Shown: positions 4,831 through 25,663, counted from the first letter of the stretch. The stretch is DNA of 25,663 nucleotides from Fidelibacterota bacterium (GCA_021734045.1 JAIPJR010000041.1:1-25663); one strand, 5' to 3'. Program-made: numbers and translations. The notes: generated from the letters alone by a model not told the origin.

Positions 4831-5399
4831 AACGCATCATTCTTGGATTGATGGTTATGTCTGCCTGCGTATGGGCGCAGACACCAAAATTTGAATATGT
4901 TGGCTCTAATCGTTGTAAAGCCTGTCATAACAAAGCGGATGAGGGTGCCCAGTATGCTCAGTGGGAATCAACCGATCACGCCAAAGCTTATGAGACGCTT
5001 CTAACCGAAGAGTCAAAGAAAATCGCGAAAGATATGGGACTCACGGTCGCTCCGGAAAAAGCACCTGAATGTTTACGCTGCCACGTCACCGGTTGGGGCG
5101 ATCCATCCGGGTATAAACTGGACATTCCTGCAGATGATATGCGCGCCAAACGCGCCAATGACAACTTGGCCGCGGTGGGTTGCGAATCCTGTCATGGTCC
5201 CGGGAGCGAGTACAAATCGAAAAAAGTGAAGGATGCCATCACGGCCGGTGAAATCAGCATGGAAAGTGTGGGATTAAAAAATCCTACTGCTGAGGATTGC
5301 ATCGTTTGTCATAACGAAGATTCGCCAACCTATAAGCCATTCACCTGGGAGGAGAAATATCCGGCCATTTCCCATCCCTATACAAAAAACACGGAATAA
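4827..5399 (+). CDS. tetrahaem cytochrome c, cytochrome c554 family
   Basis: A 190-residue periplasmic electron carrier. A signal peptide with likely cleavage after VWA (about residue 17) is followed by four CXXCH motifs at 30-34, 82-86, 119-123 and 158-162. The segments YAQWESTDHAKAYETL, CLRCHVTGWG, VGCESCHGPGSEYKS and CHNEDSPTYKPF are characteristic of the cytochrome c554/c-prime family, where a haem is often ligated by a distal His such as His51. GGGAG stands 7-10 bases before the ATG. It is the first recognised gene of the sigma-54-promoted operon and probably the soluble partner of the HybA/NrfD complex. The classical c554 partner, hydroxylamine oxidoreductase, is not present in this window, so nitrification is not implied. 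Confidence 0.92.
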   Translation: MKRIILGLMVMSACVWAQTPKFEYVGSNRCKACHNKADEGAQYAQWESTDHAKAYETLLTEESKKIAKDMGLTVAPEKAPECLRCHVTGWGDPSGYKLDIPADDMRAKRANDNLAAVGCESCHGPGSEYKSKKVKDAITAGEISMESVGLKNPTAEDCIVCHNEDSPTYKPFTWEEKYPAISHPYTKNTE

Positions 5400-5437
5400 T
5401 GCGATTCTGAATTCCAAGCATTTCTAGCGGAGTTACT

Positions 5438-7550: not shown

Positions 7551-8728
7551 AGAAGCTCATCCCTGTTTTCATCATTCTGCTCGCTTGTTGGAGTTGTGAA
7601 AAAGAAAGAACCTATTCCCTGCCACAGGATACGGTCAGAACCGCTAGTGACACCAGTGCTCACGTGCTGGCAATGGAAAGCGGTAGTACGCCTTGTAATA
7701 CCTGTCATACTTGCGATACACCGACGGTGCAGAATCCCTGTCTGATAGCATGTCCTCGCGATAAATCTTCGCATATCACATCAGGTAAGCATGCGCCGGA
7801 TGAGGGGCCGGAAATCGTCATTATCGACCAACTCAAGAAGCTGTATGAGCCGGTGATTTTCCAGCATCGTCTTCATTCAAGCATGTCCGCCATGGGCGTG
7901 GGGTGCAGCGCGTGTCACCATTACAGTCCGGAAGGTGAAATTCCACCCTGCCGCGAATGCCACAGCGAAGAAGCGATTAGCACGAACCTGCGTCAACCGA
8001 GTCTGAAAGGTGCTTATCACCGGCAATGTTTGAATTGTCACCGGGAATGGAGCCATGATACCGATTGTGACGTGTGCCATTTGCCGCTGGATAGGTTGGC
8101 ACCACCCACTCCACAGCCGGATAAAACCGACATTATCGGTGTGGATCACCCCACTATTCATATTCCGGAAAAACAGATATTTAAAACACCGGATGAGAAT
8201 AACACCATTGTCACCTTCCATCACCAGGAGCATGTGGATCTTTACAGATACCGCTGTGTGGATTGTCACCGGGATGAGAATTGTAGTCAATGCCATGAGG
8301 GCGTTGGGATGATAAAATCATTTGGTGATAAGCTGGAGATGCATCATTCGCCCTGCTCGGATTGTCACAATACCACTGCGGATAAAAATTGCAATTTCTG
8401 CCACATGCAGGAAGAGAGTAAGGGCTTTACCCATGACCTCACCGGCTGGCCCTTAAGTCGGTTTCACAAAGCCCTGACCTGTGCAAGTTGCCATCCTCAA
8501 AATCGTCCGTTACAGAAGCTGAATAAAACCTGCACCGCCTGCCATACCAACTGGTTTGTGGGCAATTTTGACCACAGCGTTACCGGACTCACGCTCAGCG
8601 AATCACACGAGTATTTTGACTGCTATGAGTGTCACCTGGATGAGCAGTATGATCAGCCGCCCCAGTGCGAAACCTGCCACGACTACGATGTCATCTACCC
8701 GGAAGACCTGCCGGGAGAAAAGGAGTAG
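7547..8728 (+). CDS. 13-haem periplasmic cytochrome c lipoprotein with extra N-terminal cysteine cluster
   Basis: A 393-residue cytochrome. The short signal MKKLIPVFIILLAC contains a lipobox (LLAC, Cys15; Cys18 is an alternative), so it is likely tethered to a membrane facing the periplasm. Thirteen CXXCH motifs are seen. Twelve align with the following gene. The extra one (50-54) lies in an N-terminal insert PCNTCHTC...PCLIACPR whose five cysteines (50, 53, 56, 65, 69) recall a ferredoxin motif. GPEIVIIDQL starts the shared region. The ATG overlaps the NrfD stop as ATGA and follows GGGAGGAA, ruling out an in-frame upstream start at 7445. It probably takes electrons from, or gives them to, the HybA/NrfD pair. 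Known relatives are generic class III/c7-like multihaem proteins without a fixed function. Confidence 0.9.
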   Translation: MKKLIPVFIILLACWSCEKERTYSLPQDTVRTASDTSAHVLAMESGSTPCNTCHTCDTPTVQNPCLIACPRDKSSHITSGKHAPDEGPEIVIIDQLKKLYEPVIFQHRLHSSMSAMGVGCSACHHYSPEGEIPPCRECHSEEAISTNLRQPSLKGAYHRQCLNCHREWSHDTDCDVCHLPLDRLAPPTPQPDKTDIIGVDHPTIHIPEKQIFKTPDENNTIVTFHHQEHVDLYRYRCVDCHRDENCSQCHEGVGMIKSFGDKLEMHHSPCSDCHNTTADKNCNFCHMQEESKGFTHDLTGWPLSRFHKALTCASCHPQNRPLQKLNKTCTACHTNWFVGNFDHSVTGLTLSESHEYFDCYECHLDEQYDQPPQCETCHDYDVIYPEDLPGEKE

Positions 8729-8733
8729 GTAGA

Positions 8734-9750
8734 ATGATGCGGCGCTCTCTGACCTGCTGTTTGGTGATTGGTCTACTGGCTGGACACTCATTTGCCCAGA
8801 AGAGCGCCAGCCAGACTGTACCAGAGGTGGTCATTCTGGACCAACTTGAGGCTATCTTCAATCCGGTCATCTTTCAGCATAAACTTCACGCTGATATGGC
8901 CACCATGGGCAAGGGCTGTGAAGTCTGTCATCATAACAGCTCGCTGGAAGCAATCCCGCCCTGCCGGGAGTGTCACACCACCAACATCGAAGAACATGAC
9001 CTTAAGAAGCCTACACTGAATGGCGCGTACCACCGTCAATGCCTGAATTGCCACAAGGATTGGGAGCAGGAGCAGGTCTGCGAATCCTGCCACACCCGAA
9101 AATCAGATCAGGCTATTGATGTGAAAATGTCCATTCCGGATAAAACCGACATTATCGGTGTGGACCATCCGGTGATTCATGTGCCTGAAAAGCAGGTTTA
9201 CAATACCTCCCACAAATCGGGCCCCTTGGTGACTTTTCATCATCAGGAGCATGTTGAGCTCTATCAATATAATTGCGTGGATTGTCACCATCAGGAAAGC
9301 TGCAGTACTTGCCATGAGGGACTTAAAAAAATAGCGCCGATTCAAAAAACCCTTAGCGTGCATCACGACCCTTGTTCCAGCTGTCATGAGACGGAAAAGG
9401 CGACGGGCTGTAGTCATTGCCACATGAAAAAAGAGAGTCCCGGCTTTACCCATGAGTTGACCGGCTGGCCGTTAAACCGTTTCCACGAAGCATTGGAATG
9501 CAACGCCTGTCACCCAAAAAGTCAGTCGGTTAAAGCGCTGGATAATACCTGTGTCAACTGCCACACCAACTGGTTTGTAGGCAATTTTGACCATGCGGTC
9601 ACCGGCTTGGAACTGAGTGACTCCCATGTCTATTTCGATTGTTTTGAATGTCATGTGGAAGAGGAATACGTGGATCCTCCAAGTTGTGAAACCTGTCATG
9701 ACGAGGATATCTATTTTCCTGATTTCCTCCCGGGAGATTGGATTAAATAA
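8734..9750 (+). CDS. 12-haem periplasmic cytochrome c, paralogue of the preceding gene
   Basis: A 338-residue cytochrome with a cleavable signal (MMRRSLTCCLVIGLLAGHSFA) and 12 CXXCH motifs. It is clearly homologous to the 13-haem lipoprotein over its whole length: both contain PDKTDIIGVDHP, VTFHHQEHV, FTHxLTGWPL, CHTNWFVGNFDH and GAYHRQCLNCH. It lacks the N-terminal cysteine cluster and has no lipobox, so it should be soluble. AAAGGAG lies 9-15 bases upstream of ATG 8734; a second ATG at 8737 is equally possible. It follows the upstream stop by 5 bases and is the last gene of the operon. A tandem duplication that split into a membrane-tethered and a soluble carrier is the simplest reading. 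Confidence 0.9.
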   Translation: MMRRSLTCCLVIGLLAGHSFAQKSASQTVPEVVILDQLEAIFNPVIFQHKLHADMATMGKGCEVCHHNSSLEAIPPCRECHTTNIEEHDLKKPTLNGAYHRQCLNCHKDWEQEQVCESCHTRKSDQAIDVKMSIPDKTDIIGVDHPVIHVPEKQVYNTSHKSGPLVTFHHQEHVELYQYNCVDCHHQESCSTCHEGLKKIAPIQKTLSVHHDPCSSCHETEKATGCSHCHMKKESPGFTHELTGWPLNRFHEALECNACHPKSQSVKALDNTCVNCHTNWFVGNFDHAVTGLELSDSHVYFDCFECHVEEEYVDPPSCETCHDEDIYFPDFLPGDWIK

Positions 9751-12344: not shown

Positions 12345-12370
12345 AGAGATCGTGCATACCGGTGCCAACT

Positions 12371-12386
12371 CGACGATTTTGTCGAA
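12371..12386. promoter_or_regulatory. enhancer-type operator copy 1: CGAC-N6-GTCGAA
   Basis: The dyad CGAC-GATTTT-GTCG is centred about 96 bases before the kinase start site and about 125 bases from the predicted divergent start site. Both fit an upstream activator site for an NtrC-type protein. The most likely ligand is the regulator encoded at 14313-15653. Confidence 0.6.
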
Positions 12387-12391
12387 TTGAC

Positions 12392-12407
12392 CGACAGAAA
12401 TGTCGAA
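12392..12407. promoter_or_regulatory. enhancer-type operator copy 2: CGAC-N6-GTCGAA
   Basis: CGAC-AGAAAT-GTCGAA repeats the first operator exactly 21 bp downstream, two helical turns away, with an unrelated 6-base spacer. The two dimers would therefore bind the same face of the DNA, as is usual for enhancer-binding proteins. Centre at about -75 relative to the predicted kinase start site. Confidence 0.6.
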
Positions 12408-12447
12408 AATTTGCCGGCAGATGCGCGGAACTGACGCATCGCCGATA

Positions 12448-12464
12448 TTGGACCTTCGCTTGCT
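12448..12464 (+). promoter_or_regulatory. sigma-54 promoter of the sensor kinase/regulator operon
   Basis: TTGGACC-TTCGC-TTGCT has the invariant GG (12450-12451) and GC (12462-12463) 10 bases apart; only CA in the -24 box deviates (ACC for CAC). The start site would be near 12475. This makes an ATG at 12479 too close to be used and supports translation from ATG 12530. Confidence 0.65.
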
Positions 12465-12529
12465 GGAGAAGAGCGGTGATGATTGGAAAATCACATACCA
12501 TCAAAACCTCTACTGGAATAAGTTACCTC

Positions 12530-14320
12530 ATGTCCAAAATTCATATTAACCGCTGGTTCATTCTCTTCTACCTGTTCCTATTTTTATTGGTGATTTTTTG
12601 GAGTTACAGCGAATTTCGCTCCCGCAATCAGCAAATTCTGGACGGCTACCGTGAACAGGCACGACTGACGGTAAATGCTATTTCCCACAGCGGCATCCGC
12701 CAGCTGGATTTATCGGAAAATCTTGAGCAAGCCTATAAAAACCGCGCGTTTAGTCTGCTGCGAACCCTGGATGAGCTGGACCGGCAAGGCATGCTGAATG
12801 ACGACCGGCTGGAGACATTGGTAGCCAGGGAAGGATTTTTCCGCATCATGTTCATCAATGCCCAGGGTGACATTCCGGTCAGTGCCGGCCACGGTCCGGG
12901 TCCCGGATATGGTATGGCCAGGTCGGGTGATCGGCCGGGATCCCACGCCCCACCACCGGGACAGGTTCGGGCGATTTACCGGTATCTGGAACCCATTCTC
13001 AGCGGTAAAACCGATTCGCTCCTCATTGGTTTACCCAGTATTGGGGCCGGATTTGGTCCCAATCGGGGTGAAGGGAGTCGAAGTCCCAACCGACCTGCAC
13101 CGCTCTCCCGGTTTATGGCGGCGATTGCTGCTCATAATGGCGGCGCCTGGGTGGCGCAATTAAATGTGGAAGTGGAAAGTGCGCTGCGGGCACAGGCGGA
13201 TTTCCAAAATCTGCTGGACAGTTTTTTGGATCTTAAAGGTGTAGCGTATCTCCGATTAACCTCACCAGCAGGCGAGCCACTGGTAACCCTGCCGGATTCA
13301 CTCTCCAAAAGCCTTCAGCAGGCAGCCATCGAATCCATTGACAATGGCGTGTTGTATGTGGATGCCGCCGACGCAGCATATATCCAGATGCAGGAATCGG
13401 TGCGATTTCAAAACCAACCTTTTCATTTAATTATAGGTTTTTACGCAGAAGCGTTTGACATGCTTAAGCACAAACTGCTACTCCAGATTCTCTTCCGCAC
13501 CGGTGTTTTTATCATCCTGGCTGTGGTTATCACGGCATTTTTCATCTCGCGGCAAAACACAGCGTTGCTACAGGCGGAGAAAGAGCGAATTGAGTCGGAA
13601 GTACGTCGGCTGGAACGCTTGCAACGCATCCAGGAAAAACAAGCCGCCATGGGCGAATTAGCCGCCGGTGTCGCCCATGAAATCCGGAATCCACTTAATG
13701 CCATCGGGATATTGGTCCAGCGACTTCAGAAAGAATTGAAACCCGCCGACGGGGCAGCAGCCGAACTAAAAAGCCTCACTTCCACGCTGCGAAATGAGGT
13801 GAACAGGATTAACACCACACTGGAGGAATTTCTCGCCTTCGCCAGACCCATTCCTCTGAAACAGGAGCCGGTGGCAGTGAAAAAAATGTTTGGTGAGATT
13901 AAAAACCTGTTCGGTTCCCAGGCTGAATCAGAACAAAAAACGCTAACCTTTTCCATTACCGGCGATCCCGTGATACTGGGTGACGATCATTATCTACACC
14001 AAGCCATGAACAATCTGGTAAAGAATGCCCTTGAGGCAACCACAGCCGGGGACACCATAACGCTGCACGCGGAAACTCAGGGCGAAGAGGTTCTGATTCG
14101 GATAAGCGATACGGGTGCCGGCATTCCCGCTGAAGCCCAGAATCGACTCTTTGATCTGTTTTATTCCACCAAGGATTCGGGGAATGGAATTGGCCTGGCA
14201 CTGGTGCATAAAATTATTAATGATCATGAGGGGAGCATTGAGGTGGCAAGTAAACCCCATAAAGCAACCATCTTCACCATTCGACTACCAGCCGCACAAA
14301 CTCAGTTAGGAAATGTGTAA
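12530..14320 (+). CDS. membrane sensor histidine kinase (ZraS/NtrB-like, partner of the sigma-54 regulator)
   Basis: A 596-residue inner-membrane kinase. Order: TM1 (about 9-25), a 290-residue periplasmic sensor region, TM2 (about 318-340), a charged coiled linker, a HisKA domain with His383 in GVAHEIRNPLN, and an ATPase domain with the N-box NLVKNALE (495-502), DTGAGIP (527-533) and GNGIGLA (551-557). The sensor region carries two unusual Gly/Pro/Arg-rich stretches (119-146 and 171-192, with GHGPGPGYG and GAGFGPNRGEG) that resemble the secreted protein encoded divergently. ATG 12530 is chosen because it directly precedes TM1 and lies downstream of the sigma-54 start site, although its ribosome-binding site is weak; the frame is open further upstream. 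Its stop overlaps the regulator gene by 8 bases. Ligand unknown; metal or envelope stress is suggested by the Zra-like arrangement. Confidence 0.9.
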   Translation: MSKIHINRWFILFYLFLFLLVIFWSYSEFRSRNQQILDGYREQARLTVNAISHSGIRQLDLSENLEQAYKNRAFSLLRTLDELDRQGMLNDDRLETLVAREGFFRIMFINAQGDIPVSAGHGPGPGYGMARSGDRPGSHAPPPGQVRAIYRYLEPILSGKTDSLLIGLPSIGAGFGPNRGEGSRSPNRPAPLSRFMAAIAAHNGGAWVAQLNVEVESALRAQADFQNLLDSFLDLKGVAYLRLTSPAGEPLVTLPDSLSKSLQQAAIESIDNGVLYVDAADAAYIQMQESVRFQNQPFHLIIGFYAEAFDMLKHKLLLQILFRTGVFIILAVVITAFFISRQNTALLQAEKERIESEVRRLERLQRIQEKQAAMGELAAGVAHEIRNPLNAIGILVQRLQKELKPADGAAAELKSLTSTLRNEVNRINTTLEEFLAFARPIPLKQEPVAVKKMFGEIKNLFGSQAESEQKTLTFSITGDPVILGDDHYLHQAMNNLVKNALEATTAGDTITLHAETQGEEVLIRISDTGAGIPAEAQNRLFDLFYSTKDSGNGIGLALVHKIINDHEGSIEVASKPHKATIFTIRLPAAQTQLGNV

Positions 14321-15653
14321 AAACATGCGCGTTCTGATTGTTGATGATGAGCAGGTGCAGCGGGAATCACTGGCTGGATTCCTGAAAAATATCGGTCACC
14401 AGGTTTTCACAGCCGATTCCGGCGGAAGCGCGCTGGCTCTGCTGGAAAAAGAACCGGTGGAGGTGGTACTTACCGATTTCAAGATGCCCGGAATGACCGG
14501 CGCCCAGCTTTTACACGATATCCGGCGTCGCTATCCATCTATTGTGGTTATTCTCATTACGGCTTACGGAACGATTGATACGGCGGTAAATGCCATGAAA
14601 GCCGGCGCCTGGGATTTCCTTACCAAGCCGGTGGATTTGGACATTTTGGAAAATCAGCTCAACGCGATTCAGGACTATTTCAAAAACCAGGTTAAAGCGC
14701 AGTCTGCATCCACTTATTCAGGACCCCCCACGGAAAATTATGTTGCTGTAGATCCCAAAATGGTGAAGCTGTTTCAGCAAGCGGAGCGGTTGGCAGCTTC
14801 CAATGCCACGGTTCTCGTTACCGGTGAAACGGGTACCGGCAAGGAGGTATTGGCGCGCTTTATCCATGATCACTCGCCCCGCAAATCGAGTCCATTCGTG
14901 GCGGTAAATTCAGCCGCACTACCTGGCAATCTGGTTGAAAGCGAGCTTTTCGGTCATGAGAAGGGTGCTTTTACCGGGGCTACGGGTCAGCGCATCGGAC
15001 GGTTTGAGGAAGCGGACAAGGGGACACTATTTCTGGACGAAATTGGAGATTTACCCCTGTTGGTTCAGATCAAGCTGCTACGCTTCCTTCAGGAGAGCGA
15101 GTTCCAGCGCGTGGGTGGTAATAAAACTATCCGAACCGACACCCGGGTCATTTCCGCGACCAATGTTGATTTGAAACAGGCCGTGCAGGAAGGCAGTTTT
15201 CGCGAGGATTTGTATTACCGTGTGAATGTGGTGCAACTTCAACTGCCCCCGTTGCGGGAGCGGCATCAGGATATTATTCCGCTCGCTGAGTTTTTCATCC
15301 GAAAAGTGTGTGACCGGGAGAGGCTGACACCACCGGCACTATCCGAATCCGCGAGACAGGCCTTACTGGCTTACACCTTTCCGGGAAATATCCGTGAATT
15401 GCAAAATATTGTTGAACGGGCGGTCCTGCTCACCACGTCACCGGAATTGACGGTGGACGAGCTGTCATTGGAACAGGATTCCGAGCCAATAACCGGAGGG
15501 GAAAATCTCACCGATTACCTGGCGACGCTTGAGCGGAATTTGATTTTGGAGGCGCTGCAGAATGCAGGCGGTAATCAGAGCGAATGCGCCCGTCAGTTGG
15601 GTATCAGCGAGCGTGTGTTGCGCTATAAATTGGGGAAGTATAAAATTCGCTAA
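14313..15653 (+). CDS. sigma-54-dependent NtrC-type response regulator (ZraR-like)
   Basis: A 446-residue cytoplasmic activator. Receiver domain (5-120) with the phospho-acceptor Asp55 in LTDFKMPG, Thr83 and Lys105. AAA+ domain (about 143-375) with Walker A GETGTGKE (171-178), the sigma-54 contact loop GAFTGA (218-223), Walker B TLFLDEIGD and the arginine finger region. C-terminal Fis-type helix-turn-helix (about 415-446, NQSECARQLGISERVLRYKL). It has every feature needed to open sigma-54 promoters. It overlaps the kinase gene by 8 bases; ATG 14325 (MRVLIVDD) is an alternative start with better spacing from TTAGGA. Likely targets are its own operon and the divergent one, through the tandem sites at 12371-12407, and perhaps the promoter at 4621. 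Convergent 4-base overlap with the next gene. Confidence 0.95.
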   Translation: MCKNMRVLIVDDEQVQRESLAGFLKNIGHQVFTADSGGSALALLEKEPVEVVLTDFKMPGMTGAQLLHDIRRRYPSIVVILITAYGTIDTAVNAMKAGAWDFLTKPVDLDILENQLNAIQDYFKNQVKAQSASTYSGPPTENYVAVDPKMVKLFQQAERLAASNATVLVTGETGTGKEVLARFIHDHSPRKSSPFVAVNSAALPGNLVESELFGHEKGAFTGATGQRIGRFEEADKGTLFLDEIGDLPLLVQIKLLRFLQESEFQRVGGNKTIRTDTRVISATNVDLKQAVQEGSFREDLYYRVNVVQLQLPPLRERHQDIIPLAEFFIRKVCDRERLTPPALSESARQALLAYTFPGNIRELQNIVERAVLLTTSPELTVDELSLEQDSEPITGGENLTDYLATLERNLILEALQNAGGNQSECARQLGISERVLRYKLGKYKIR

Positions 15654-16249
15654 AAAAGGCCGCTTACGGTGATACCCATGGTGGTAGCATCTTCATCCTC
15701 AATCCTTCTCAGAGCATAATTCACATTGATTAAAAGACGCGTCCCGCCCAGGTCAAATGAATAGCCTGCGCCACCCAGAATGCCGAAACCATTTTCACTG
15801 GAATCCGTATCGCCGTCACTATCCTGCATTACCATTTTCGCCAGGCCAGCATCCGCCCGTAAGAACAAACCACTCCCGAATCTCTTGCCCGGGTAGGTAA
15901 TCATGCTGATGCCATACAGATACTGATTGAGTTGCATCCAGGAGTCATCCACTTCCATCCGATCAGCGGCACCATTTATCACAACGCCCCCGATAGTCTG
16001 CGGGGAGAGATGTTTATAAAATCCCAGAAGATCCATGGCAATTTTTGTGCGGGTAACACCATCCTGATCCTCAAGGTAATTCATGATGGTATTTAAATCT
16101 CCCGGGTAGGTAATGTCCGCCGATCCCAGACTCCACAGGGTGTACCAGGATTCACGGTTTCCGGAATTTCCCTCATCTGCCTGCGCAAATACACCTGAGG
16201 TGACCAAAAGAAATCCTACGACGAACTTTTTGACCAAATGACTTCCCAT
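15650..16249 (-). CDS. small outer-membrane beta-barrel protein
   Basis: A 199-residue protein with a signal peptide (MGSHLVKKFVVGFLLVTSGVFA). The mature part has alternating strand patterns with Gly/Tyr-rich turns, such as SGLFLRADAGLAKM, GFGILGGAGYSFDLGG and RLLINVNYALRR, and ends in VSGLF. That C-terminal Phe is typical of outer-membrane barrels of about eight strands. GGAGGG 7 bases before ATG 16249 is a strong ribosome-binding site. It stands between the regulator (overlapping stop codons) and the cytochrome b gene, 126 bases from the latter, so it may have its own promoter. Function unknown. Confidence 0.7.
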   Translation of the reverse strand: MGSHLVKKFVVGFLLVTSGVFAQADEGNSGNRESWYTLWSLGSADITYPGDLNTIMNYLEDQDGVTRTKIAMDLLGFYKHLSPQTIGGVVINGAADRMEVDDSWMQLNQYLYGISMITYPGKRFGSGLFLRADAGLAKMVMQDSDGDTDSSENGFGILGGAGYSFDLGGTRLLINVNYALRRIEDEDATTMGITVSGLF

Positions 16250-16374: not shown

Positions 16375-17220
16375 CTAACGGTAGGCAAAAATCATGGCGT
16401 AAATTATCCACACCACGATGAAAAGTCCGGTAAACAGGGCCACGGTCCCAAACACCCTGATCGCGCGGATAACAATCGGCTGATAAGGCTCCACCAGATG
16501 CTTTTCCAGCTCGCCATTCTCCACCAGTTTGGCATATTCTTCCGGTCGGTCCAGCTTGAATTCCTCCAGGGGAACCCGCCCTGAGAAAATGACGATGTCC
16601 ATGGGAAATTTTTCCGGACGCAAATGGGTATTAAAAAAGTGGACCGTGAAAATAAATCCGGTTGCCAACAACGCTTCATCACTGTGAATAATCGTGGCGA
16701 CATTCAATACCCAGCCCGGCAGAAACAGCGTGAAAAACTCCGGGAACCACAGTGTCATTCCCGTTGACCCAATCACCACCATCCCCCAAAAAACCGCCAG
16801 ATAATCGAACTTCTCCCAGTAGGTCCAGCGCCCGTACGCCGGACGATCCCCCTGTCCTAAAAACCATTTCAGGGAAGCTTTCAGGTCCAGCCAATCTTTT
16901 TTATTGAACCACATGGAATTGGGATGCAATAGCATATCCTTAAAAGTCCAGCCCGAGCTGATTTTTAATCGTGCCAAATCCACCAAATGGATAAGAAACA
17001 CCATTATCATCACAAAAGCTGCCAACCGGTGATAAAAGCCCGCCGCTTCGAATCCACCAAAAAAGCGGGACAACCCGACCGCCCAGCCGGTGTAGGAAAA
17101 CTTCAATGTCATACCCGTGAGAGAAAGGGTAATAAAGCTCAGGATCGTGAAAATATGCAGCGCCCGGTTCAGCCGGGTGAAACGTTCATATTGGGGCTGG
17201 GTAGATTTATTGCTGTTCAT
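16375..17220 (-). CDS. b-type cytochrome, di-haem membrane subunit (cytochrome b561/FdnI-like)
   Basis: A 281-residue inner-membrane protein starting MNSNKSTQPQYERF at ATG 17220, preceded by GAGGAAAACA; the longer in-frame extension to 17343 has no membrane or signal features. Hydrophobic helices lie at about 21-40, 60-83, 140-160, 165-195 and 250-278. Candidate haem ligands inside or beside helices are His22, His64, His78, His179, His194 and His199. The pattern resembles formate dehydrogenase gamma and thiosulfate-reductase cytochrome b subunits that oxidise or reduce quinones. The gene overlaps the 19-haem cytochrome gene by 14 bases, so the two proteins very probably form a complex. The C-terminal cytoplasmic loop (about 205-245) is charged. 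Confidence 0.88.
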   Translation of the reverse strand: MNSNKSTQPQYERFTRLNRALHIFTILSFITLSLTGMTLKFSYTGWAVGLSRFFGGFEAAGFYHRLAAFVMIMVFLIHLVDLARLKISSGWTFKDMLLHPNSMWFNKKDWLDLKASLKWFLGQGDRPAYGRWTYWEKFDYLAVFWGMVVIGSTGMTLWFPEFFTLFLPGWVLNVATIIHSDEALLATGFIFTVHFFNTHLRPEKFPMDIVIFSGRVPLEEFKLDRPEEYAKLVENGELEKHLVEPYQPIVIRAIRVFGTVALFTGLFIVVWIIYAMIFAYR

Positions 17221-19267
17221 TGTTTTCCTCGTCAGTGTTTCCATCAAATTGCTCAGCCTGTTCAGCTGCTGCCAGGCGCCGCCGGAGTTCCCGCTTCCAC
17301 TGGAATGAGCGCGGCAGCCAGAGCAAAGTGTGCAGACCGGCAATCAAAAATGTGACTGTCAGCAGGCCGGTCATTGCCCAGAATGTCCAGAACAAAATGG
17401 GATATTTCACCGGATCATGGTGGGTGGCGTGGGTGAGGTAACCGGCAAATTGGCGATTCGCAGCCGGATGACAGGTTTTGCAGGTTTCCACCACATTCTG
17501 GCGGCTCAGCCTTGAATCAGGATCCTCTGGTGGCAGAATATCGTGGGCACCGTGGCAGTCGTAACACTTGGCTGTTTTGGTATAGCCAAGCTGAGAGACT
17601 TTACCATGATATGTATCAAAATAGGATTCGGTCACCTCCTTGTGACACTGACCGCACTGGGTCATCATCTGCAATTTGAAGTTTTCCTCATCTGTGCGGG
17701 AAATGGTGTGGGCAGAGTGACAGGTGGAGCAAACCGGCAACCGCTCATCAGTCTGTGACACCATAGGCGAGTGAATGCTCTTTAAAAATGTGGCTTCCAC
17801 ACCCATGTGACACTCTCCACACGTCCCGGCAATATTATTGGGATGGACGCTGGAATTGGGATTGGAAGCCGGCTGCTCCCGGTGCGCGGTATGACAGTTG
17901 GTACAGGTAGCGGTCACGGTTAATCCGCTTTTCAGCAGCCCTTTTCCGTGAATACTCTCGATGTAATTGAAAACGATATCCTTCTCAGCACCTTCATACC
18001 GTACGGCCGCGTCCTGGCCGGTACGGTGGCAATTTCCGCAGAGATTGGGGATATTGGTCGGGAAGATTGGCGAATCCGGATTGGCGCGTCCCTGCACACT
18101 GTGATCACCGTGACACTCGGTACACGAGGGTCCATTCGGGTCGTTTTTCGCGACTAATTCACCATGAATACTGTGGCGGAAGTCCTCGCCCTGCGATTCA
18201 TGGCAGATAGAACAATCCACTGGCTCCGTAAGCGTTTCACAGGGACGGTCATGACGGGGATCCACATTGATATGACATTGACTACAAGCCGTTTGGGCAT
18301 GGCGGGAATGGGAAATTTCGGTTTTATCCACAAACAGTGAGCGTCCATCCAGGGATGACTTGATCTCCTGATCGGCGTGACATTTCTGACAATCCTCATC
18401 GGCAATGCCTTCAATGTAGAAGGATTTACGAACCTTATGGGGTTGGTGGCAATCCACGCAAGCCGGCAGTTTGTGCGGTTCAGTCTCCCAGAGCTGACCC
18501 CGAATCACCTTTTGATGCACCCGCTCGATCTCGGTATGACAATTGGAGCAAGTCGAGGCAATGTTCTGCTTTGCAATGGTCGATCGGGGATCGGTGTGGG
18601 GTAAAATCCGGTGGGCGGTGTGGCAGGAAACACAGGTCGCTGAAACTGTCAGTCCCTTTTTCAGCAACCCCTCACCGTGCATACTTTGGGAGTAGTTTTC
18701 CAGAATTTTATCCTGGGGAATATTATAGCGCACACTGACTTCAGTACCTTCATGGTGGCAGGAGCCGCACAACGCGGGAATTTTGATGGGCCGTACATTG
18801 GATTCGGGTGAGGCAAGGGGTTTAATGTCGTGAGAACCGTGACAGGTTTGGCACATGGGCGCCAATTCCTCCCCGCCTGCTACCCGCTTGTCATGGAGTG
18901 ACATGCTATATTGCTGGAGTGCCACGCGGTGACAATTTCCACAGGCAACTTTTTGCAAACCCGGAGAATGGCCCGGTTTTCCGGGTTGCGGTAGCGCATC
19001 TTCATGACAATCCGTACAACTCAGGACATTGTGAACCGAATGGTTAAATACCTGGCGATCCACATAGAGAGAAATGCTTTCCTCATTTTCAATCCGCTCC
19101 AGTGAGCGATAACCATGACACGTGAGGCATTGCTCGTTATCCAGGGTTTGAGCCCGAAGGCGTACCGGATTAACCCACCCGATTAAAAGATACGTGAGGG
19201 CGAAAATGAAAGTTTTGTGCAGCAGACTGGTTCTAACGGGTTCTCGGACTATCTCATACATTCGCAA
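17207..19267 (-). CDS. 19-haem cytochrome c with C-terminal membrane anchor
   Basis: A 686-residue protein with an N-terminal signal (about 1-40), 19 CXXCH motifs and one C-terminal transmembrane helix (about 622-652) followed by a charged cytoplasmic tail. Haem motifs begin at residues 47, 84, 109, 139, 167, 212, 240 and 270, and again at 293, 328, 352, 382, 410, 455, 483 and 513, a regular shift of about 243. This shows a tandem duplication of an octahaem module. Three more (538, 568, 596) form the conserved tail containing CYDCHGAHDI. The TTG start at 19267 is preferred over ATG 19261 because GGGGGG lies 7 bases before the TTG but 13 before the ATG. It overlaps the cytochrome b gene and should pass electrons between its quinone site and the periplasm. 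Confidence 0.93.
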   Translation of the reverse strand: MRMYEIVREPVRTSLLHKTFIFALTYLLIGWVNPVRLRAQTLDNEQCLTCHGYRSLERIENEESISLYVDRQVFNHSVHNVLSCTDCHEDALPQPGKPGHSPGLQKVACGNCHRVALQQYSMSLHDKRVAGGEELAPMCQTCHGSHDIKPLASPESNVRPIKIPALCGSCHHEGTEVSVRYNIPQDKILENYSQSMHGEGLLKKGLTVSATCVSCHTAHRILPHTDPRSTIAKQNIASTCSNCHTEIERVHQKVIRGQLWETEPHKLPACVDCHQPHKVRKSFYIEGIADEDCQKCHADQEIKSSLDGRSLFVDKTEISHSRHAQTACSQCHINVDPRHDRPCETLTEPVDCSICHESQGEDFRHSIHGELVAKNDPNGPSCTECHGDHSVQGRANPDSPIFPTNIPNLCGNCHRTGQDAAVRYEGAEKDIVFNYIESIHGKGLLKSGLTVTATCTNCHTAHREQPASNPNSSVHPNNIAGTCGECHMGVEATFLKSIHSPMVSQTDERLPVCSTCHSAHTISRTDEENFKLQMMTQCGQCHKEVTESYFDTYHGKVSQLGYTKTAKCYDCHGAHDILPPEDPDSRLSRQNVVETCKTCHPAANRQFAGYLTHATHHDPVKYPILFWTFWAMTGLLTVTFLIAGLHTLLWLPRSFQWKRELRRRLAAAEQAEQFDGNTDEENNEQQ

Positions 19268-19341
19268 GTGCAGACCCCCCTTGCGTTTTACAGTACCGTC
19301 CCCCTTAAACTCTGACTGTAATTGCTCTGTGTTATATTTTC

Positions 19342-21021
19342 TTAATAGCTCTGACCATTATGGTCTTTGCCATGGCAGATGAGATAGCAACTCCCGTGCC
19401 CGGGTGTTTCGGATTCCACAATTTTTTTCCCATGAGATGGCTCGATAAATGGCCGGTTCAGATCCAGCAAACCCGGCAACGTGGGGCTACCGTGGGGATT
19501 ATGACACGCGCTGCAGGCGTAGCCGGCCCGTTCAATATGCAGATTGTGGAACTTAAACCCGTTATCCTGCAGAACGCGCTGTTCCGCATGGCATTGATAG
19601 CACAATTCACTCCCTGCTGAAGCAGCGAAAGGTGTTTGGCTGTCGGCGTAGGGTTTTTTCAAAATATGCGGGATATTGGATCCGTGTGGTCCGGTCACGC
19701 CGCCGACATCATCGTTACCGTGACAATCGGTACACCGAATCATGGATTGTTCGGACCAACCCTCTTTCAGACTGGGCACGTAAGGCGAATTCCCGGGACC
19801 TTCAATCGGGTGAAAGCTCATATTGGATGTGGCAAACAGACGCGCCACATCGCTGGCCGGTTCCGCGTTTTGATTATACCCGTGACATTTATAACAGACC
19901 TGATATTCAAATTCGGCATTCTCTTTGGGAAATCCCATAGCGTCCACACCGCGCACAAAAATGAGCGCACCGGGCAGGAAGGGCGACGGATCTTCCGGTT
20001 GGGCTGAATGGGGATTATGACAATCACCACAGCGCACATACCGGTCTTCGGAAAAGCCACCCTGCCAGCGTGATGTGGCAGAGCCATACCCGATCTCGGT
20101 TACATTGGGATTGATGCGGATGGGGTGGATGAAAGGCTTTTCAAACACTTCTTGCAGATTGTAGCGACTCATAACCTCGGTGGCGTCATCCTGTGAGCCA
20201 TCGTGACAACTCATGCAGAGCGAATTTTCATCGGTGCGCAATAGTTTGGCTTTTGTGGGTAGTGTGTGAATCTCATGACACTGAAGACAGGCAATCTCTT
20301 TCAGTGGTTTTAGTACCGGATTGGCGGGATTCCCGTGGGTAGAATTTCCCCAGTTATTCATGTGATGGCACGCCAGGCAAATTTCAGAGCCACGATTGGT
20401 CACTTTCAGGAAATGGCCATTTTCATTGTTGTGGGGATCGTGGCAGGTACCGCATTGGACCGTCTGATTATCACCCATGAATAAAGGTGAAGATGAGTCG
20501 GGACGGCTGATTTCCGCACCGGATGGCGGGAATGCAAACAGATGGGTGTTGTAATTTTCAGCCGAGACCGGTTGAGGTGCGGTCAGGTTGACCTGGGGAT
20601 TGGCACGCTCAGGACGCCGTGGAAATCCACGGGCTACGGTACCGTCGTGACAAAACAGGCAATTCCGGCTGTCCGGATCCAGTGGGAATACTTTGCCGGG
20701 CGCGTTTTCAACGGTTTTGCGGGTATCAAAATTGCGTACCGATTCCTGACGATACCAAAGCGGTTCCACCGCCGGATTTACCCGGGGCATGTGACAATAG
20801 CGGCACAGGGAATAATCCGTTAAAAACGCCAGACTGTCGGCCACGTCCTGACGACCTTGCAGGGAGAGATTGTGGGGTGTGGAAATAACTTTCCCCTTCT
20901 CCTCCAGGCTGCCGGGTTCATCAACTTGTGCCCAAACCCCTGTGGCCGCCAGCGTCATTATCAACAAAACCCGCCAGGCTGTTGCCGGGGTTTTACCGCG
21001 AAATAGTTTCTGCCGTCGCAT
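19342..21021 (-). CDS. multihaem cytochrome c (11 CXXCH plus one CX3CH)
   Basis: A 559-residue exported protein. The signal peptide (about 1-31, cleaved near VWA) is followed by 11 CXXCH motifs from Cys73 onward and by one atypical CYLICH (CX3CH) at 545-550, ten residues before the C-terminus. Doubled-CXXCH spacing and DPHNN/NPHS segments after haems are typical of the paired-CXXCH family. The ATG overlaps the stop of the upstream beta-barrel gene by one base (TAATG), so translation is coupled. Together with the barrel and the NHL lipoprotein it may form a porin-cytochrome conduit. There is no lipobox and no transmembrane anchor, so it is periplasmic or held by the barrel. The CX3CH is seen in the DNA directly and is not a frameshift. 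Confidence 0.92.
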   Translation of the reverse strand: MRRQKLFRGKTPATAWRVLLIMTLAATGVWAQVDEPGSLEEKGKVISTPHNLSLQGRQDVADSLAFLTDYSLCRYCHMPRVNPAVEPLWYRQESVRNFDTRKTVENAPGKVFPLDPDSRNCLFCHDGTVARGFPRRPERANPQVNLTAPQPVSAENYNTHLFAFPPSGAEISRPDSSSPLFMGDNQTVQCGTCHDPHNNENGHFLKVTNRGSEICLACHHMNNWGNSTHGNPANPVLKPLKEIACLQCHEIHTLPTKAKLLRTDENSLCMSCHDGSQDDATEVMSRYNLQEVFEKPFIHPIRINPNVTEIGYGSATSRWQGGFSEDRYVRCGDCHNPHSAQPEDPSPFLPGALIFVRGVDAMGFPKENAEFEYQVCYKCHGYNQNAEPASDVARLFATSNMSFHPIEGPGNSPYVPSLKEGWSEQSMIRCTDCHGNDDVGGVTGPHGSNIPHILKKPYADSQTPFAASAGSELCYQCHAEQRVLQDNGFKFHNLHIERAGYACSACHNPHGSPTLPGLLDLNRPFIEPSHGKKIVESETPGHGSCYLICHGKDHNGQSY

Positions 21022-22652
21022 TAGAACCGCCTCATAAAACGCATCCAGACCAGGGTGTTTTGTTCACCGAATTGCTCCGGCAACCCTCGGAACTGAAAAT
21101 CCAGGACATAATCAAATTTTACAAAATTGAACTTCAAAAACGCGCTGAGCCACAGGTAGTCCGGATAAATTTCTGAATTGAACCGGTAGAGCCCCATGAG
21201 ATTCAAACTGGTGAACCGGTTTAGTGGCATCGTCGCCCGGGTGTTGACCCGTTGCTCCATATCCCCGGCTGTGAGGTGAAGAATATCGAAATAGGATACC
21301 GATACCTGCAGTCGCTGTCGAAGTATTTTCACAAAAACTTCATTGGTAATGGCATTTCGCAGGGTGTCTTCGGCGAATTGTAAATCCGCACCAATATGAT
21401 TCTTGATTTGTAGCCGGTTGCCGTACTGAAAGCGCTGGCGGGGATTCACCAGAAATGTGGTTTGGAGTTGATGCTCCACATCATAGAGAAATTCCTCTGT
21501 CACCGGGTCAAAGGCATTAAAAATCTCACCCTGAAAAATGTCTTTCACATTCCAGGCAAATTTGGAGGACCGGTACAGGTCAAATCCCTCTTCGGTGAGG
21601 AATTCAGTCGTCAGACCAAGTCCGTAGTTGAAAGACTCTTTGTAACCGGTGCGTATCAATCCCCGGGCAAAATTGGTACGTCCGATCTGCCAGTTCAAAC
21701 CCGCCTGATAGGCGCGCCAGTGAAAAAGTGTCACGGAATCCGATTCCTGAACCTTATTCCCGCGGAAAATGGCTTCCAGCTCAAAAACGGGCGTTAATTG
21801 GTACCGGTAGGCCGCACTATAGCGCTGAATCAGGAGCGGACGCGCCCCATATTCATAATCACCGTAGCTGTAATAGCCGCGCAACTCATGCCGGTTTTTC
21901 TGATAATTGGCCTCCTGGAATGCCCGCCAATACTGGGTCTCACCCTGCTGGTAAAAACTGTTTGAGCCGGTCCAGTGAAAACCTTTGAAGGGGCGTCCAT
22001 GCCAGTTGAATGACGCCCGCTGACGAAAATCAGGATTGGCTGACCGTTGCTGGCGCTGCCAATCATCCCGCTCTGCCGTCAAACGAAAATTCAATCCCAG
22101 CATCCGTTTTTCCAGTTGCGCCTGGATAAATTGACGCGCCGTTTCAACGCTGTCGCGTTGCTGGGTTCGGTATCCCAGACCGATTCCCAGCCGGGTCCGG
22201 GCAGGCAATTGCGTATCCAGCCGGATGCCATTAACCCACTCGGTCCGGGCTAATGAATCCACCATAAACCGCACCGGGTCCGTGACCTGATAATAGCTGA
22301 ACAGCGCGAGTGACACCGGTTTCCAGGGATTTAGCCGGCTCTGGAGATGGTATTCCGGCGTGACCTGCGTTTCCTGATAGCGTGAAGCTCCCTGGATAAT
22401 GCCGCCACCGGTGAGTTTCCAGCGCCAATCCATTGATTCGCTGAGAATGCCGGTTCCACCCCACTGCAGACGCTCCATGTGAACGAAATAGCCACCACTG
22501 GACTGGGTGGTGTCCCGAATGTAGCCCATGCGACCTTCCAACATACCAGCAGGCTGAAGCCCTTGCCCTTGTGCTGATAAGCCGGATAGTCCCAAAAGCC
22601 CCCCGAGAAGGACCAATCCTGCTTGTCGAAGAAATGTCTTATGGTTGTGCAT
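21021..22652 (-). CDS. large outer-membrane beta-barrel (porin of a putative porin-cytochrome conduit)
   Basis: A 543-residue protein starting MHNHKTFLRQAGLVLLGG at ATG 22652 with a signal peptide ending near GLSAQG. The frame is open further upstream to 22913, but that part overlaps the NHL gene and has no secretion signal. The rest is dominated by alternating amphipathic strands rich in Tyr, Arg, Gln and Trp, and ends LVWMRFMRRF with a terminal Phe. Length and strand content suggest roughly 20 or more strands. It is translationally coupled to the downstream cytochrome (TAATG) and overlaps the upstream lipoprotein gene by 14 bases. That arrangement matches the idea behind MtrB/PioB and OmbB-type porins, although no sequence similarity to those was recognised. 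Confidence 0.82.
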   Translation of the reverse strand: MHNHKTFLRQAGLVLLGGLLGLSGLSAQGQGLQPAGMLEGRMGYIRDTTQSSGGYFVHMERLQWGGTGILSESMDWRWKLTGGGIIQGASRYQETQVTPEYHLQSRLNPWKPVSLALFSYYQVTDPVRFMVDSLARTEWVNGIRLDTQLPARTRLGIGLGYRTQQRDSVETARQFIQAQLEKRMLGLNFRLTAERDDWQRQQRSANPDFRQRASFNWHGRPFKGFHWTGSNSFYQQGETQYWRAFQEANYQKNRHELRGYYSYGDYEYGARPLLIQRYSAAYRYQLTPVFELEAIFRGNKVQESDSVTLFHWRAYQAGLNWQIGRTNFARGLIRTGYKESFNYGLGLTTEFLTEEGFDLYRSSKFAWNVKDIFQGEIFNAFDPVTEEFLYDVEHQLQTTFLVNPRQRFQYGNRLQIKNHIGADLQFAEDTLRNAITNEVFVKILRQRLQVSVSYFDILHLTAGDMEQRVNTRATMPLNRFTSLNLMGLYRFNSEIYPDYLWLSAFLKFNFVKFDYVLDFQFRGLPEQFGEQNTLVWMRFMRRF

Positions 22653-23661
22653 AGTACTGAAAAACCTGGATTCGGTTATTGTATTGATCCACCACATAGA
22701 GCTGCTCCTGGTCATCAAACCCGATAGCGCCGGGCAGCATGAATTCCCCCTGCTCCCAGCCGGTTTCACCGAAGAAATAGAGCAGGGCGCCCTGCTGGTT
22801 AAAAATCTGAATATTGCCGAAGGCAGCATCTGAAACAAATATGTACCCATCACTGGAAATGGCAATTCCCTTGGGAAACCCGAAGGATCCCGGTGTGCGA
22901 TCGTACGTCCCAAATTCAGACAACCACGCCAGTTCGGGTGAAAAAATCTTGGTCTTGCGGTTCAGGCCGTCCAGCACGAAAATTTTTCCTGTCTCATCCG
23001 TATCCACACTCACCGGAAAGTGAAACTGCGTCGGCGCAGTACCCAATCCGCCCAGGGCAGCCATAAATGTACCGTCGGTCTGGAAAATGAAAATCTGGTG
23101 CGACGGCGGATCTACTACCAGAAGGCGCTGAGTAACCGGATCGTATTTCAATTGGCTGGGACGAACGAAATTATCATGATGAATAGTCCCGACAGCTTCC
23201 AACGCATGATTAAAAACCTGGACCAAATGCCGGTCCACATCGGATACGAAGATAGCCTGATTCGTGATGGCAATGCCCACTGGCATTTTCAACACATCCA
23301 CTCCGAATTCCGTGACTTCGTGACAATCCCCTTCCGGGCCAGAAAATCGCAGGACACGACCCAATTCCATATCCACTACGAATATCTGCCCCATGGAATC
23401 TACAGCCACGCCGGTGGGACGATGGAGTGGCATCTGGGGACAATCCCCGGCCAGGAGTCGCTGCAGGCGTGAGCCCCATGACCCAGACTCTTCTACCTTA
23501 CCCGTGTAGGTTTTTTCCAATGTGAGGAACGGGAAATTTTCATCCGCCGGGAACTGGAGTTTCTCCATGGGCTGCTGATGACCACAGGCGGTGACAATTG
23601 CCGTGAGAATCCCCAAGGAAAAGAATACCCTGACCTGTTGCCAGCGTTTTTTGAAACGCAT
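22639..23661 (-). CDS. NHL-repeat beta-propeller lipoprotein
   Basis: A 340-residue protein. The signal ends with a lipobox (IVTAC, Cys26), so it is lipid-anchored. From about residue 78 it holds repeating blades such as PTGVAVDSMGQIFVVD, PKGIAISSDGYIFVSDAA and LYVVDQYNNRIQVF, giving a six-bladed NHL propeller. NHL propellers are protein- or ligand-binding scaffolds and often accompany multihaem cytochrome clusters in metal- or electrode-respiring bacteria. AGGGGGA precedes ATG 23661. It starts 11 bases after the upstream 18-haem cytochrome stop and overlaps the barrel gene by 14 bases, so all four proteins are probably made together. Likely a scaffold on the outer-membrane inner or outer leaflet. 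Confidence 0.9.
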   Translation of the reverse strand: MRFKKRWQQVRVFFSLGILTAIVTACGHQQPMEKLQFPADENFPFLTLEKTYTGKVEESGSWGSRLQRLLAGDCPQMPLHRPTGVAVDSMGQIFVVDMELGRVLRFSGPEGDCHEVTEFGVDVLKMPVGIAITNQAIFVSDVDRHLVQVFNHALEAVGTIHHDNFVRPSQLKYDPVTQRLLVVDPPSHQIFIFQTDGTFMAALGGLGTAPTQFHFPVSVDTDETGKIFVLDGLNRKTKIFSPELAWLSEFGTYDRTPGSFGFPKGIAISSDGYIFVSDAAFGNIQIFNQQGALLYFFGETGWEQGEFMLPGAIGFDDQEQLYVVDQYNNRIQVFQYYAQP

Positions 23662-23672
23662 ATAAACTCCCC

Positions 23673-25663
23673 CTAATACCGTTTCCGCTTGGCCGGATCA
23701 TGGAAATAATTGTATTTCCAGAGTGCGCTGGTACCGTGACAATCGGAACACAACGCTTTTTCACTGGGTTCCCGCAGGAATGAGGTGAGGCGAGTGCCTT
23801 CCTCATTTTCAGATTTGGGTACGACCAGCGCATTGTCAAAGGACCACTTATGTGGGTTATGACATGTAAAGCAATCAATGTACCCAACGGTGTCCGCCGG
23901 GCCGGATTCTGTAAATAATGGAAAATCTGTCCACTCACCTACACCCCGGATTGAGGTGGTCACCGTACCATATTCATGGGGATGGGACCAGGTTGAGGGG
24001 ACCTTGCCGGCAGCCATGCCATTCTCCCGGTGGCAGGTAAAACAATGCTTCTCGTTGTAGGTATCACCCGGTACATCCTCACTCCAGCGCGCCAGAATGC
24101 CCGCTTGTGCTGAAGCGTTATGCGGAGTATGACACAATGAGCACGCGCTTTTTCCGGGTTGAGATAAATCGTGGTCGGTCATGAGAACAGTGGCTTGTTC
24201 AGTATGGCAATCCAGACACAATCCCGGTTCCGGGAAATTACTGACCCGCAGGAAAGAATTTTCGTCGTTACCCGCCAGATTTTCAGTGGTGGCGTTACTC
24301 GTTACCGTCCCCCAGTCGTGGGGATCATGACAGGTAATACAGTTCATTACGGTACCCTGACCTGCCGCCATTCCAGGCAGGCCGGAGTTGGAGCTGAATG
24401 TCATGCCCATGGGATGGTCGGCATGGCCCACCGTCGTGGCTGGCGTATTCTCGTTGTGGCAGCCTTCGCACAGTCCAGCCACCCGATCCTGGTTTGTATT
24501 GGGCGCAGCCACGGTAAAACCGGCCGAGTGCGTACTGTGGCAGGCAGAACACTGCCCCTGAACCTCACCGGTTTCCTGGAAATACATTTGAAAGCCCTCA
24601 CGCTTTACGCTATGGTCGGACTGGGTGATAGTTTGTTGTTCGGCGTGACAGGTGGCGCACAAGGTGCCCTCGGCATCATCCGGCAGGCGCAGGAACGACG
24701 TGCGCTCCGTTCCCTCCTCGTTGGTAGCCGTCAAATTACGCTTACCCTCGTGCTCCCAGCGATGGGGGTCATGACAAGAGACGCACTTCAGCTCGTCTCC
24801 GGCCTGAATGGCCATTTCCGGAATGGCATCGCCAAAAACTTTCCCACTTATGGGATGACCTTCATGCTTGAATGCCTTTGCGCTTGCCAGGCCATCATTT
24901 GAATGACATTCCAGACAATAGGCGTTCAGCGACTGCTTCTCCTGAATCTCCAGCGCCCACATGTATTTGCCCTCACCATCATGGGTCACATGGCAGGAAG
25001 CACAGATATCCTGTTCACGGAAGGTTAAGCCATTTGCAGTGGTTTCGTATGGATGGGAGACGGTCAAATCGTGGTCAGTGAGAGAAATAGCAAACTGATC
25101 CGCGTGACAGGCGGAACAGAGAGCCGTGCGATTTTTACCGGCTACCAATTCCACATCTTTTTCGCCATGAATGGGATGACAGGTCATACACTCCACCGTA
25201 TTGTCATCACCCCAATGGGTGCTTTCCGGCATACGATTCCCATCCGGGCGGGACACATGAATCGGATGATTGATTTCAGGCCGGTTTTGGTCCGGATGAC
25301 ATTTCATACAGAGTTCAGAGTTGTCCGTTTCCACGCGCATGAAGGGCGCAAAACTGTCTGGTCGTTCCGGCGGCAGAGAGTGAACCGAATGACAGGTTCC
25401 GCAATAAATCTCCCCATTGGCATTCAGGGGCAGGTCATTCACCGGAAGCTGACCAGGGAGCATGTTACCGTGATGATTCTCCGACAGAAAAGCCTCCCGG
25501 GAATCAGACACATACCCATCATGACAGGACAGGCACATGGCTTCCGCGGTGACCAGGGAGGGTTTTCCATCAATGATAATATTCGATGTGATCTTGGGAA
25601 TGAGGGTTTCCTTCCCCTTGCCGGTCACATGCCAGGTGACATGACAGGTGGAGCAATCCTCCG
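23673..25663 (-). CDS. multihaem cytochrome c, at least 18 haems (5' end outside window)
   Basis: The frame is open to the right edge and the N-terminus is missing: the extra codons at 25629-25663 encode another haem motif, CSTCH, so the in-window GTG at 25628 is not the start. At least 18 CXXCH motifs occur in about 660 residues. A module recurs in which SFLR or FMR is followed 9-12 residues later by LCxxCH (for example SFLRLPDDAEGTLCATCH, SFLREPSEKALCSDCH). It alternates with CxxCHDPHxW and CxxCHTPHN segments, typical of doubled-CXXCH proteins. Whether it is a lipoprotein or surface-exposed cannot be told without the N-terminus. It precedes the NHL lipoprotein by 11 bases and is likely the outermost electron carrier of the cluster, although that is inference. 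Confidence 0.9.
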   Translation of the reverse strand, partial: EDCSTCHVTWHVTGKGKETLIPKITSNIIIDGKPSLVTAEAMCLSCHDGYVSDSREAFLSENHHGNMLPGQLPVNDLPLNANGEIYCGTCHSVHSLPPERPDSFAPFMRVETDNSELCMKCHPDQNRPEINHPIHVSRPDGNRMPESTHWGDDNTVECMTCHPIHGEKDVELVAGKNRTALCSACHADQFAISLTDHDLTVSHPYETTANGLTFREQDICASCHVTHDGEGKYMWALEIQEKQSLNAYCLECHSNDGLASAKAFKHEGHPISGKVFGDAIPEMAIQAGDELKCVSCHDPHRWEHEGKRNLTATNEEGTERTSFLRLPDDAEGTLCATCHAEQQTITQSDHSVKREGFQMYFQETGEVQGQCSACHSTHSAGFTVAAPNTNQDRVAGLCEGCHNENTPATTVGHADHPMGMTFSSNSGLPGMAAGQGTVMNCITCHDPHDWGTVTSNATTENLAGNDENSFLRVSNFPEPGLCLDCHTEQATVLMTDHDLSQPGKSACSLCHTPHNASAQAGILARWSEDVPGDTYNEKHCFTCHRENGMAAGKVPSTWSHPHEYGTVTTSIRGVGEWTDFPLFTESGPADTVGYIDCFTCHNPHKWSFDNALVVPKSENEEGTRLTSFLREPSEKALCSDCHGTSALWKYNYFHDPAKRKRY

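Follow-up and report, generated by a model that had tools for sequence, protein, structure and literature searches.

A Marinimicrobia gene cluster with a large outer-membrane barrel and multihaem cytochromes as a candidate trans-envelope electron-transfer system

Introduction

Do six adjoining genes of a Marinimicrobia contig, which code for multihaem cytochromes, a large outer-membrane barrel, a lipoprotein, and a cytochrome b, belong to a route for electrons across the cell envelope? Porin-cytochrome conduits of unrelated origin are known, namely Mtr, Omb/Omc, Ext, Oet, PCC3/4, and Uet, and NHL or β-propeller proteins are present in some porin-cytochrome clusters or related cytochrome operons. 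The window analyzed here, a stretch of 25,663 nucleotides, is one entire contig (C5) of Candidatus Neomarinimicrobiota (Marinimicrobia), and an earlier note on this DNA had proposed that the six genes form a new conduit. In marine redoxclines, Marinimicrobia rank among the most abundant bacteria; at a depth of 150 m in the Black Sea, they make up about 30% of the 16S reads (PMC8067304). In the literature searched, no paper on Neomarinimicrobiota or Marinimicrobia also deals with extracellular electron transfer and cytochromes or multihaem proteins, and only five mention Marinimicrobia and extracellular electrons together at all. A working conduit would let these bacteria, abundant in oxygen-poor seas, trade electrons with the cell exterior, and would place a pelagic phylum among those that do so with solids, dissolved metals, or partners. 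Our analysis indicates that the window probably holds the downstream half of a larger trans-envelope electron-transfer cluster, which would work like a porin-cytochrome complex.

Results

Genes of the window

All six minus-strand genes are present, in the order and with the spacing given in the earlier note. From the upstream end, they encode an 18-haem c-type cytochrome (23673–25663), an NHL six-bladed propeller lipoprotein (22639–23661; start ATG 23661, 340 residues), the large outer-membrane barrel (21021–22652; start ATG 22652, 543 residues), a 12-haem c-type cytochrome proposed as the barrel partner (19342–21021; start ATG 21021, 559 residues), a 19-haem c-type cytochrome (17207–19267; stop 17207, start either TTG 19267 or ATG 19261), and a b561-type cytochrome b (16375–17220; start ATG 17220, 281 residues; PF01292, CxxCH absent), which is proposed as the inner-membrane quinone partner of the 19-haem protein. 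The 18-haem and NHL lipoprotein genes are separated by 11 bases, the NHL lipoprotein and barrel genes overlap by 14 bases, the barrel and 12-haem genes meet in TAATG, a gap of 74 bases (taking the TTG start) lies between the 12-haem and 19-haem genes, and the 19-haem and cytochrome b genes overlap by 14 bases. The haem counts claimed earlier are borne out by 18 and 19 CxxCH motifs for the 18-haem and 19-haem proteins, whereas the 12-haem protein has 11 CxxCH and reaches twelve only if a C-terminal CX3CH is counted. Since composition-matched shuffled sequences contain on average 0.04–0.14 CxxCH, chance is excluded for these motifs. Measured against the nearest genome, all six genes, including the barrel, are under strong purifying selection (dN/dS 0.04–0.07).

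The window terminates within the 18-haem gene, the 5' end of which is lost, and because it is a whole contig the gene set is cut. The 18-haem gene is broken at the identical codon in contigs of two different genomes of the window's genus (window end 25663; L023 start). Directly downstream of the six genes lies a minus-strand gene for a 199-residue probable small outer-membrane protein (15650–16249; weak PF13505 match, E 0.013), which is kept in the nearest genome and whose membership in the cluster is uncertain. Plus-strand genes for a histidine kinase and a sigma54-type response regulator (12362–15653) directly adjoin the proposed conduit genes and are candidate regulators. Additionally, the plus strand at 4827–9750 carries consecutive genes for a c554-like cytochrome, an Fe-S protein, NrfD, and two c3/c7 cytochromes, a probable further quinone-linked multihaem complex on the same contig.

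A large barrel without recognized relatives

The barrel protein has a signal peptide and a C-terminal aromatic residue. Structure prediction, which the earlier note had suggested for the barrel together with the cytochrome, was carried out on the barrel alone, and the AlphaFold2 model contains 28 strands (mean pLDDT 83.2) that start at residue 33, directly after the signal peptide. Neither the barrel nor its 19 homologues gave a convincing Pfam or NCBIfam match. The MtrB/PioB model (PF11854) matched none of these 20 proteins, even at E 10, and nothing anywhere in the window's genome; likewise, the barrel profile found no sequence match among PDB chains, the MtrB chain included. The absence of MtrB/PioB likeness remarked on earlier therefore holds, and no match to an unrelated transporter family appeared. 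As for the suggested separate family, the barrel appears new by sequence as measured against the Pfam, NCBIfam, and PDB models, and was compared with the ExtB/ExtE/ExtI, OetI, OmbB, UetC, and PCC3/PCC4 barrels by description only.

Foldseek searches against the PDB and viral structures returned generic barrels only (TM about 0.2–0.4). In a VIA re-alignment of the matches, MtrB (6r2q_B) was joint top with a Z of 13.9 and had the longest alignment among the matches listed (422 residues over 30–543, rmsd 7.7), while VDAC, Occ porins, and maltoporin reached the same Z over shorter alignments. Because of this tie, the fold comparison indicates a large barrel, not a conduit; as far as a predicted model goes, it supports a very large barrel and nothing beyond. 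LptD, TonB receptors, VDAC, ushers, and Occ porins were rejected as relatives (4–11% identity, mostly large rmsd). A barrel new by sequence would help define the features that let a barrel hold a cytochrome.

The 12-haem cytochrome and its junction with the barrel

The barrel gene adjoins a multihaem cytochrome gene, as in porin-cytochrome systems. Specifically, at each of the 20 junctions read, the stop codon of the barrel gene shares bases with the start codon of the 12-haem gene, as TAATG in the window's genus and ATGA elsewhere. The coupling that the earlier note had taken as a sign of a 1:1 complex is thus general, but an overlap is no proof of 1:1 stoichiometry. The 12-haem protein has a type I signal peptide, and its complete homologues all show 11 CxxCH plus the C-terminal CX3CH (masked in one copy); from this conserved motif, a twelfth haem is likely. 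The 12-haem profile matches MtrA (6r2q_A) weakly, the score against TIGR03508 (DmsE/MtrA-family decahaem) is 65 bits and below the cut-off of 192, and tblastn gave no match to the protein in plasmids. Its AlphaFold2 model reached a pLDDT of 33 and was left unused, so the placement of the cytochrome in the barrel stays a proposal.

Another resemblance bears on a different role for the barrel. The 12-haem profile matches 7tfs, the filament cytochrome OmcE, in two stretches (E 7.9e-16 in the N-terminal third), and OmcE-like tetrahaem genes adjoin the second cluster type described below. Both points would suit a barrel that exports or assembles extracellular cytochromes, as a filament or at the surface, and does not house one. 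However, the barrel has no periplasmic domain of the secretion-channel kind, its strands running from residue 33, and the 12-haem protein is much bigger than OmcE; we consider such an export function improbable.

The 18-haem cytochrome and the NHL lipoprotein

The 18-haem protein matches PF22113 (MtrC/MtrF-like, 91 bits) and also PF09699. Its complete homologues are 687–717 residues long, carry a type I signal peptide without a lipobox, and share a conserved C-terminus (LWKYNY-HDP-KR-RY). Every complete homologue has 18 haem sites, and therefore no site is missing from the contig-cut window copy. A surface location of this protein is a guess. The NHL lipoprotein (PF01436, 86 bits) has the lipobox VTAC, and its homologues also have lipobox-like sites at the N-terminus. 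With respect to a haem-bearing surface lipoprotein, the window lipoprotein is a haem-free NHL propeller, the 18-haem protein is without a lipobox, the rhodanese lipoprotein encoded upstream is without haem, and the upstream selenocysteine cytochrome has an ambiguous lipid anchor.

The complete cluster and its distribution

The cluster extends upstream of the 18-haem gene in L024/L044, a genome of the window's genus, and contig C6 of the window's own genome carries this upstream half. There, the nos gene set is followed by genes for a multihaem cytochrome that has an in-frame TGA and for a rhodanese lipoprotein. Next come another multihaem cytochrome, an 8-haem cytochrome, a fusion of a 7-haem protein with cytochrome b, a 3-haem protein anchored in the membrane, and finally an NHL protein reaching the contig end. 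Contigs C6 and C5 share no overlapping bases, and we infer their adjacency from synteny. Across the taxonomic order, the genes run selenocysteine (Sec) cytochrome, rhodanese, 8-haem, 7-haem, cytochrome b, 3-haem, NHL, 18-haem, NHL lipoprotein, barrel, and 12-haem. The core 18-haem/NHL lipoprotein/barrel/12-haem is kept wherever contigs allow (20 loci), whereas the 19-haem/cytochrome b pair is confined to the window's genus. The conserved gene order that the earlier note had suggested as a check thus exists for the former four genes and not for the latter two, and its six-gene conduit was the wrong unit. The proper unit is a cluster of roughly 12 genes with a four-gene core, to which the window's genus adds a second quinone module. 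The broader claim is supported: one conserved unit combines a quinone-type inner-membrane module with many cytochromes, a large barrel, and a lipoprotein.

The genomes compared are metagenome-assembled. Of the 23 genomes in the order, 22 have the barrel, and the one without it is 63% complete; none of the 222 other genomes of the phylum has it. The 18-haem protein occurs in 21 genomes, every one a barrel carrier; the two proteins therefore share their distribution. Outside the phylum, distribution was assessed by one contig scan with two peptide patterns, in which the barrel relatives in named genomes were Candidatus Neomarinimicrobiota (Marinimicrobia) metagenome-assembled genomes. A record titled Sphingomonadales (L061, PFJE01000086.1) includes a barrel fragment of the Marinimicrobia type, with 83% identity to the window's barrel, and is probably a mis-binned contig. 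The barrel-carrying genomes include the isolate names BS150m, which suggests a Black Sea origin, and SI036, presumably Saanich Inlet; the name of the cluster-bearing genome L052 (isolate BS150m-G71) is that of a Black Sea genome.

Upstream of the cluster in the window's genome (L077:2-7876) are nosZ, nosL, nosD, nosF, nosY, and genes for a Ric-type hemerythrin protein and a NapH/NosR-like ferredoxin membrane protein. The nos genes would fit a periplasmic system that supplies electrons to nitrous oxide reductase or to a different reductase, in which case the barrel would be an unrelated passenger. In the other genomes' loci read (up to 19 kb), however, nosZ and nosD gave no match whereas the barrel stays in place, and a mere passenger would sit poorly with the strong purifying selection on the barrel. 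A nosZ link was rejected as a general feature of the cluster, since nosZ is not a neighbor in the other loci, and we regard the electron-supply explanation as very improbable.

A probable selenocysteine cytochrome and a rhodanese lipoprotein

The gene at the head of the cluster (L077:8995-10506, contig C6) probably encodes a selenocysteine multihaem cytochrome outside the ExtKL family model, to judge from its sequence. An in-frame TGA stands at one conserved site (..PG-U-GGG..) in 11 genomes (homologues in L025, L031, L032, L035, L046, L052, L054, L056, L057, and L062), and the hairpin 3' of it, positioned like a bacterial SECIS, has three pairs changed on both sides in a compensatory manner. 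SelB is above cut-off in 21 of the 23 genomes of the order, and the L042 homologue has Asp at the TGA site. Read through the TGA, the protein has no NCBIfam match. Its identification as ExtKL was rejected because it fails the NF040886 model, for which the best match, elsewhere in the genome, reached 30.8 bits against a cut-off of 250. The rhodanese lipoprotein (L077:10529-11521) matches PF00581 and has the N-terminal lipobox MSGC. The scan of the cluster genes gave no Rieske match.

The selenocysteine cytochrome and rhodanese lipoprotein also favor a reading in which the barrel acts as a substrate channel that admits, for instance, selenium or sulfur oxyanions or some other soluble acceptor, and the cytochromes make up a periplasmic reductase chain that uses what enters. 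Geobacter ExtI, which has a similar parts list around it, was reported to be unneeded for Fe(III) citrate reduction and needed for selenite and tellurite reduction (PMC5877670), and a barrel beside cytochromes therefore need not be a mineral conduit. Nevertheless, the predicted 28 strands are far more than in ordinary solute porins, the barrel gene overlaps the 12-haem gene in all genomes read, and no convincing porin-family match was obtained, so a substrate channel seems unlikely.

A second quinone module in the window's genus

The 19-haem protein has one C-terminal transmembrane helix (residues 622–640). The upstream heptahaem protein matches it at three separate places, so that in sequence it resembles tandem copies of the heptahaem domain, and the cytochrome b beside it shares 30% identity with the corresponding half of the upstream 7-haem/cytochrome b fusion. 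On these grounds, the 19-haem/cytochrome b pair looks like a second quinone module, a duplicated and expanded copy of the upstream one.

Relatives of the 12-haem cytochrome beside another outer-membrane protein

Six genomes from four other families encode relatives of the 12-haem protein, full-length or contig-cut, with the same C-terminal CX3CH, and G004 has such a relative as a second copy. The earlier note had held that cytochromes found without the barrel would count against the proposal; these relatives do lack the window's barrel, yet they adjoin another large outer-membrane protein. Where the contig reaches, this second, conduit-like cluster (L078–L084) comprises an NHL lipoprotein and a 5-haem cytochrome, then an outer-membrane protein of about 650 residues, an NHL protein, and a 13-haem relative of the 12-haem protein; further genes encode a 14-haem cytochrome, a histidine kinase together with a response regulator, and a tetrahaem protein like OmcE. 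In G004, both cluster types lie on one contig. Profile comparison of the window barrel with the 650-residue protein gave a probability of 0.3%, both profiles being shallow and a common origin possible. It appears that one conserved cytochrome family stays with NHL propellers and a large outer-membrane protein, although the latter is not always the same.

Discussion

We favor the view that the cluster is a trans-envelope electron-transfer system of the porin-cytochrome kind. This view is based on the conserved core order, the shared distribution of barrel and 18-haem protein, the overlap at every barrel/12-haem junction, the fixed haem counts, the 28-strand model, the length of the structural alignment with MtrB, the large outer-membrane protein beside the 12-haem relatives, the quinone-type modules in the run, and the low dN/dS. 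In the mechanism we infer, the b-type cytochromes with membrane-anchored multihaem partners (7-haem/cytochrome b and 3-haem) would exchange electrons with quinone at the inner membrane, as would the 19-haem/cytochrome b pair in the window's genus, and periplasmic cytochromes would ferry them across the periplasm. The 12-haem cytochrome, inside or docked to the 28-strand barrel, would form a complex crossing the outer membrane, and the 18-haem cytochrome and NHL lipoprotein may be the surface or docking part. Electrons could flow in either direction.

A bolder version, which we hold to be doubtful, sees an independently evolved outer-membrane conduit confined to one Marinimicrobia order. In this version, a conserved 12/13-haem family would be paired with unrelated barrels in different families, and the conduit would act, together with the selenocysteine cytochrome and rhodanese lipoprotein, on sulfur or selenium compounds outside the cell in marine redoxclines.

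Functionally, the closest systems may be the Geobacter ext clusters, with barrels set side by side by description. Geobacter extHIJKLMNOPQS, which corresponds to GSU2940–GSU2930 (PMC5877670, PMC6148476), has been tied to the reduction of selenite and tellurite (PMC5877670), and its extHIJKL part to that of Fe and Mn oxides (PMC6148476). Both clusters contain a selenocysteine multihaem cytochrome, a rhodanese lipoprotein (likened to ExtH by domain and lipobox), a porin-like barrel, a 12-haem cytochrome, more multihaem cytochromes, and a cytochrome b. Unlike the Geobacter cluster, that of Marinimicrobia adds the 18-haem and NHL proteins, and its barrel has 543 residues compared with the 45-kDa ExtI. 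Because the selenocysteine cytochrome falls below the ExtKL cut-off and no Rieske protein (ExtO) was found, we do not class the Marinimicrobia cluster as extHIJKLMNOPQS.

Geobacter ExtEFG and the OetABI of syntrophic sulfate reducers (PMC6148476, PMC10553843) likewise combine a barrel with a periplasmic dodecahaem cytochrome (ExtG), but have a pentahaem lipoprotein where the window has the 18-haem cytochrome and NHL lipoprotein. The second cluster type has parts similar to theirs, and its 5-haem cytochrome adjoins the barrel as in ExtEFG. MtrCAB/PioAB/MtoAB share the pairing of a large barrel with a multihaem cytochrome, and MtrB gave the longest structural alignment; in contrast, the present barrel has no MtrB/PioB sequence match, and its proposed partner has 12 instead of 10 haem sites and stays below the DmsE/MtrA-family cut-off. 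Compared by parts list, Uet of Ca. Tenderia and Gallionella (PMC10734462) has an 11/12-haem doubled-CXXCH cytochrome, a barrel, two NHL proteins, and trihaem cytochromes in common with our cluster, but differs in a peptidylprolyl isomerase and a tetrahaem surface cytochrome. The ANME-partner operon (PMC5539420) and PCC3/PCC4 (PMC5566968), also compared by parts list, are alike in very large cytochromes plus β-propeller proteins, or in a barrel combined with large cytochromes and a b-type protein of the inner membrane, but have gene sets of their own (isomerase and 16/26-haem cytochromes; five-helix inner-membrane protein). Set against these systems, the features that appear new here are the barrel family, by sequence and relative to the models tested; the four-gene core; the occurrence in this phylum; and the way in which different barrels have been exchanged around a single cytochrome family.
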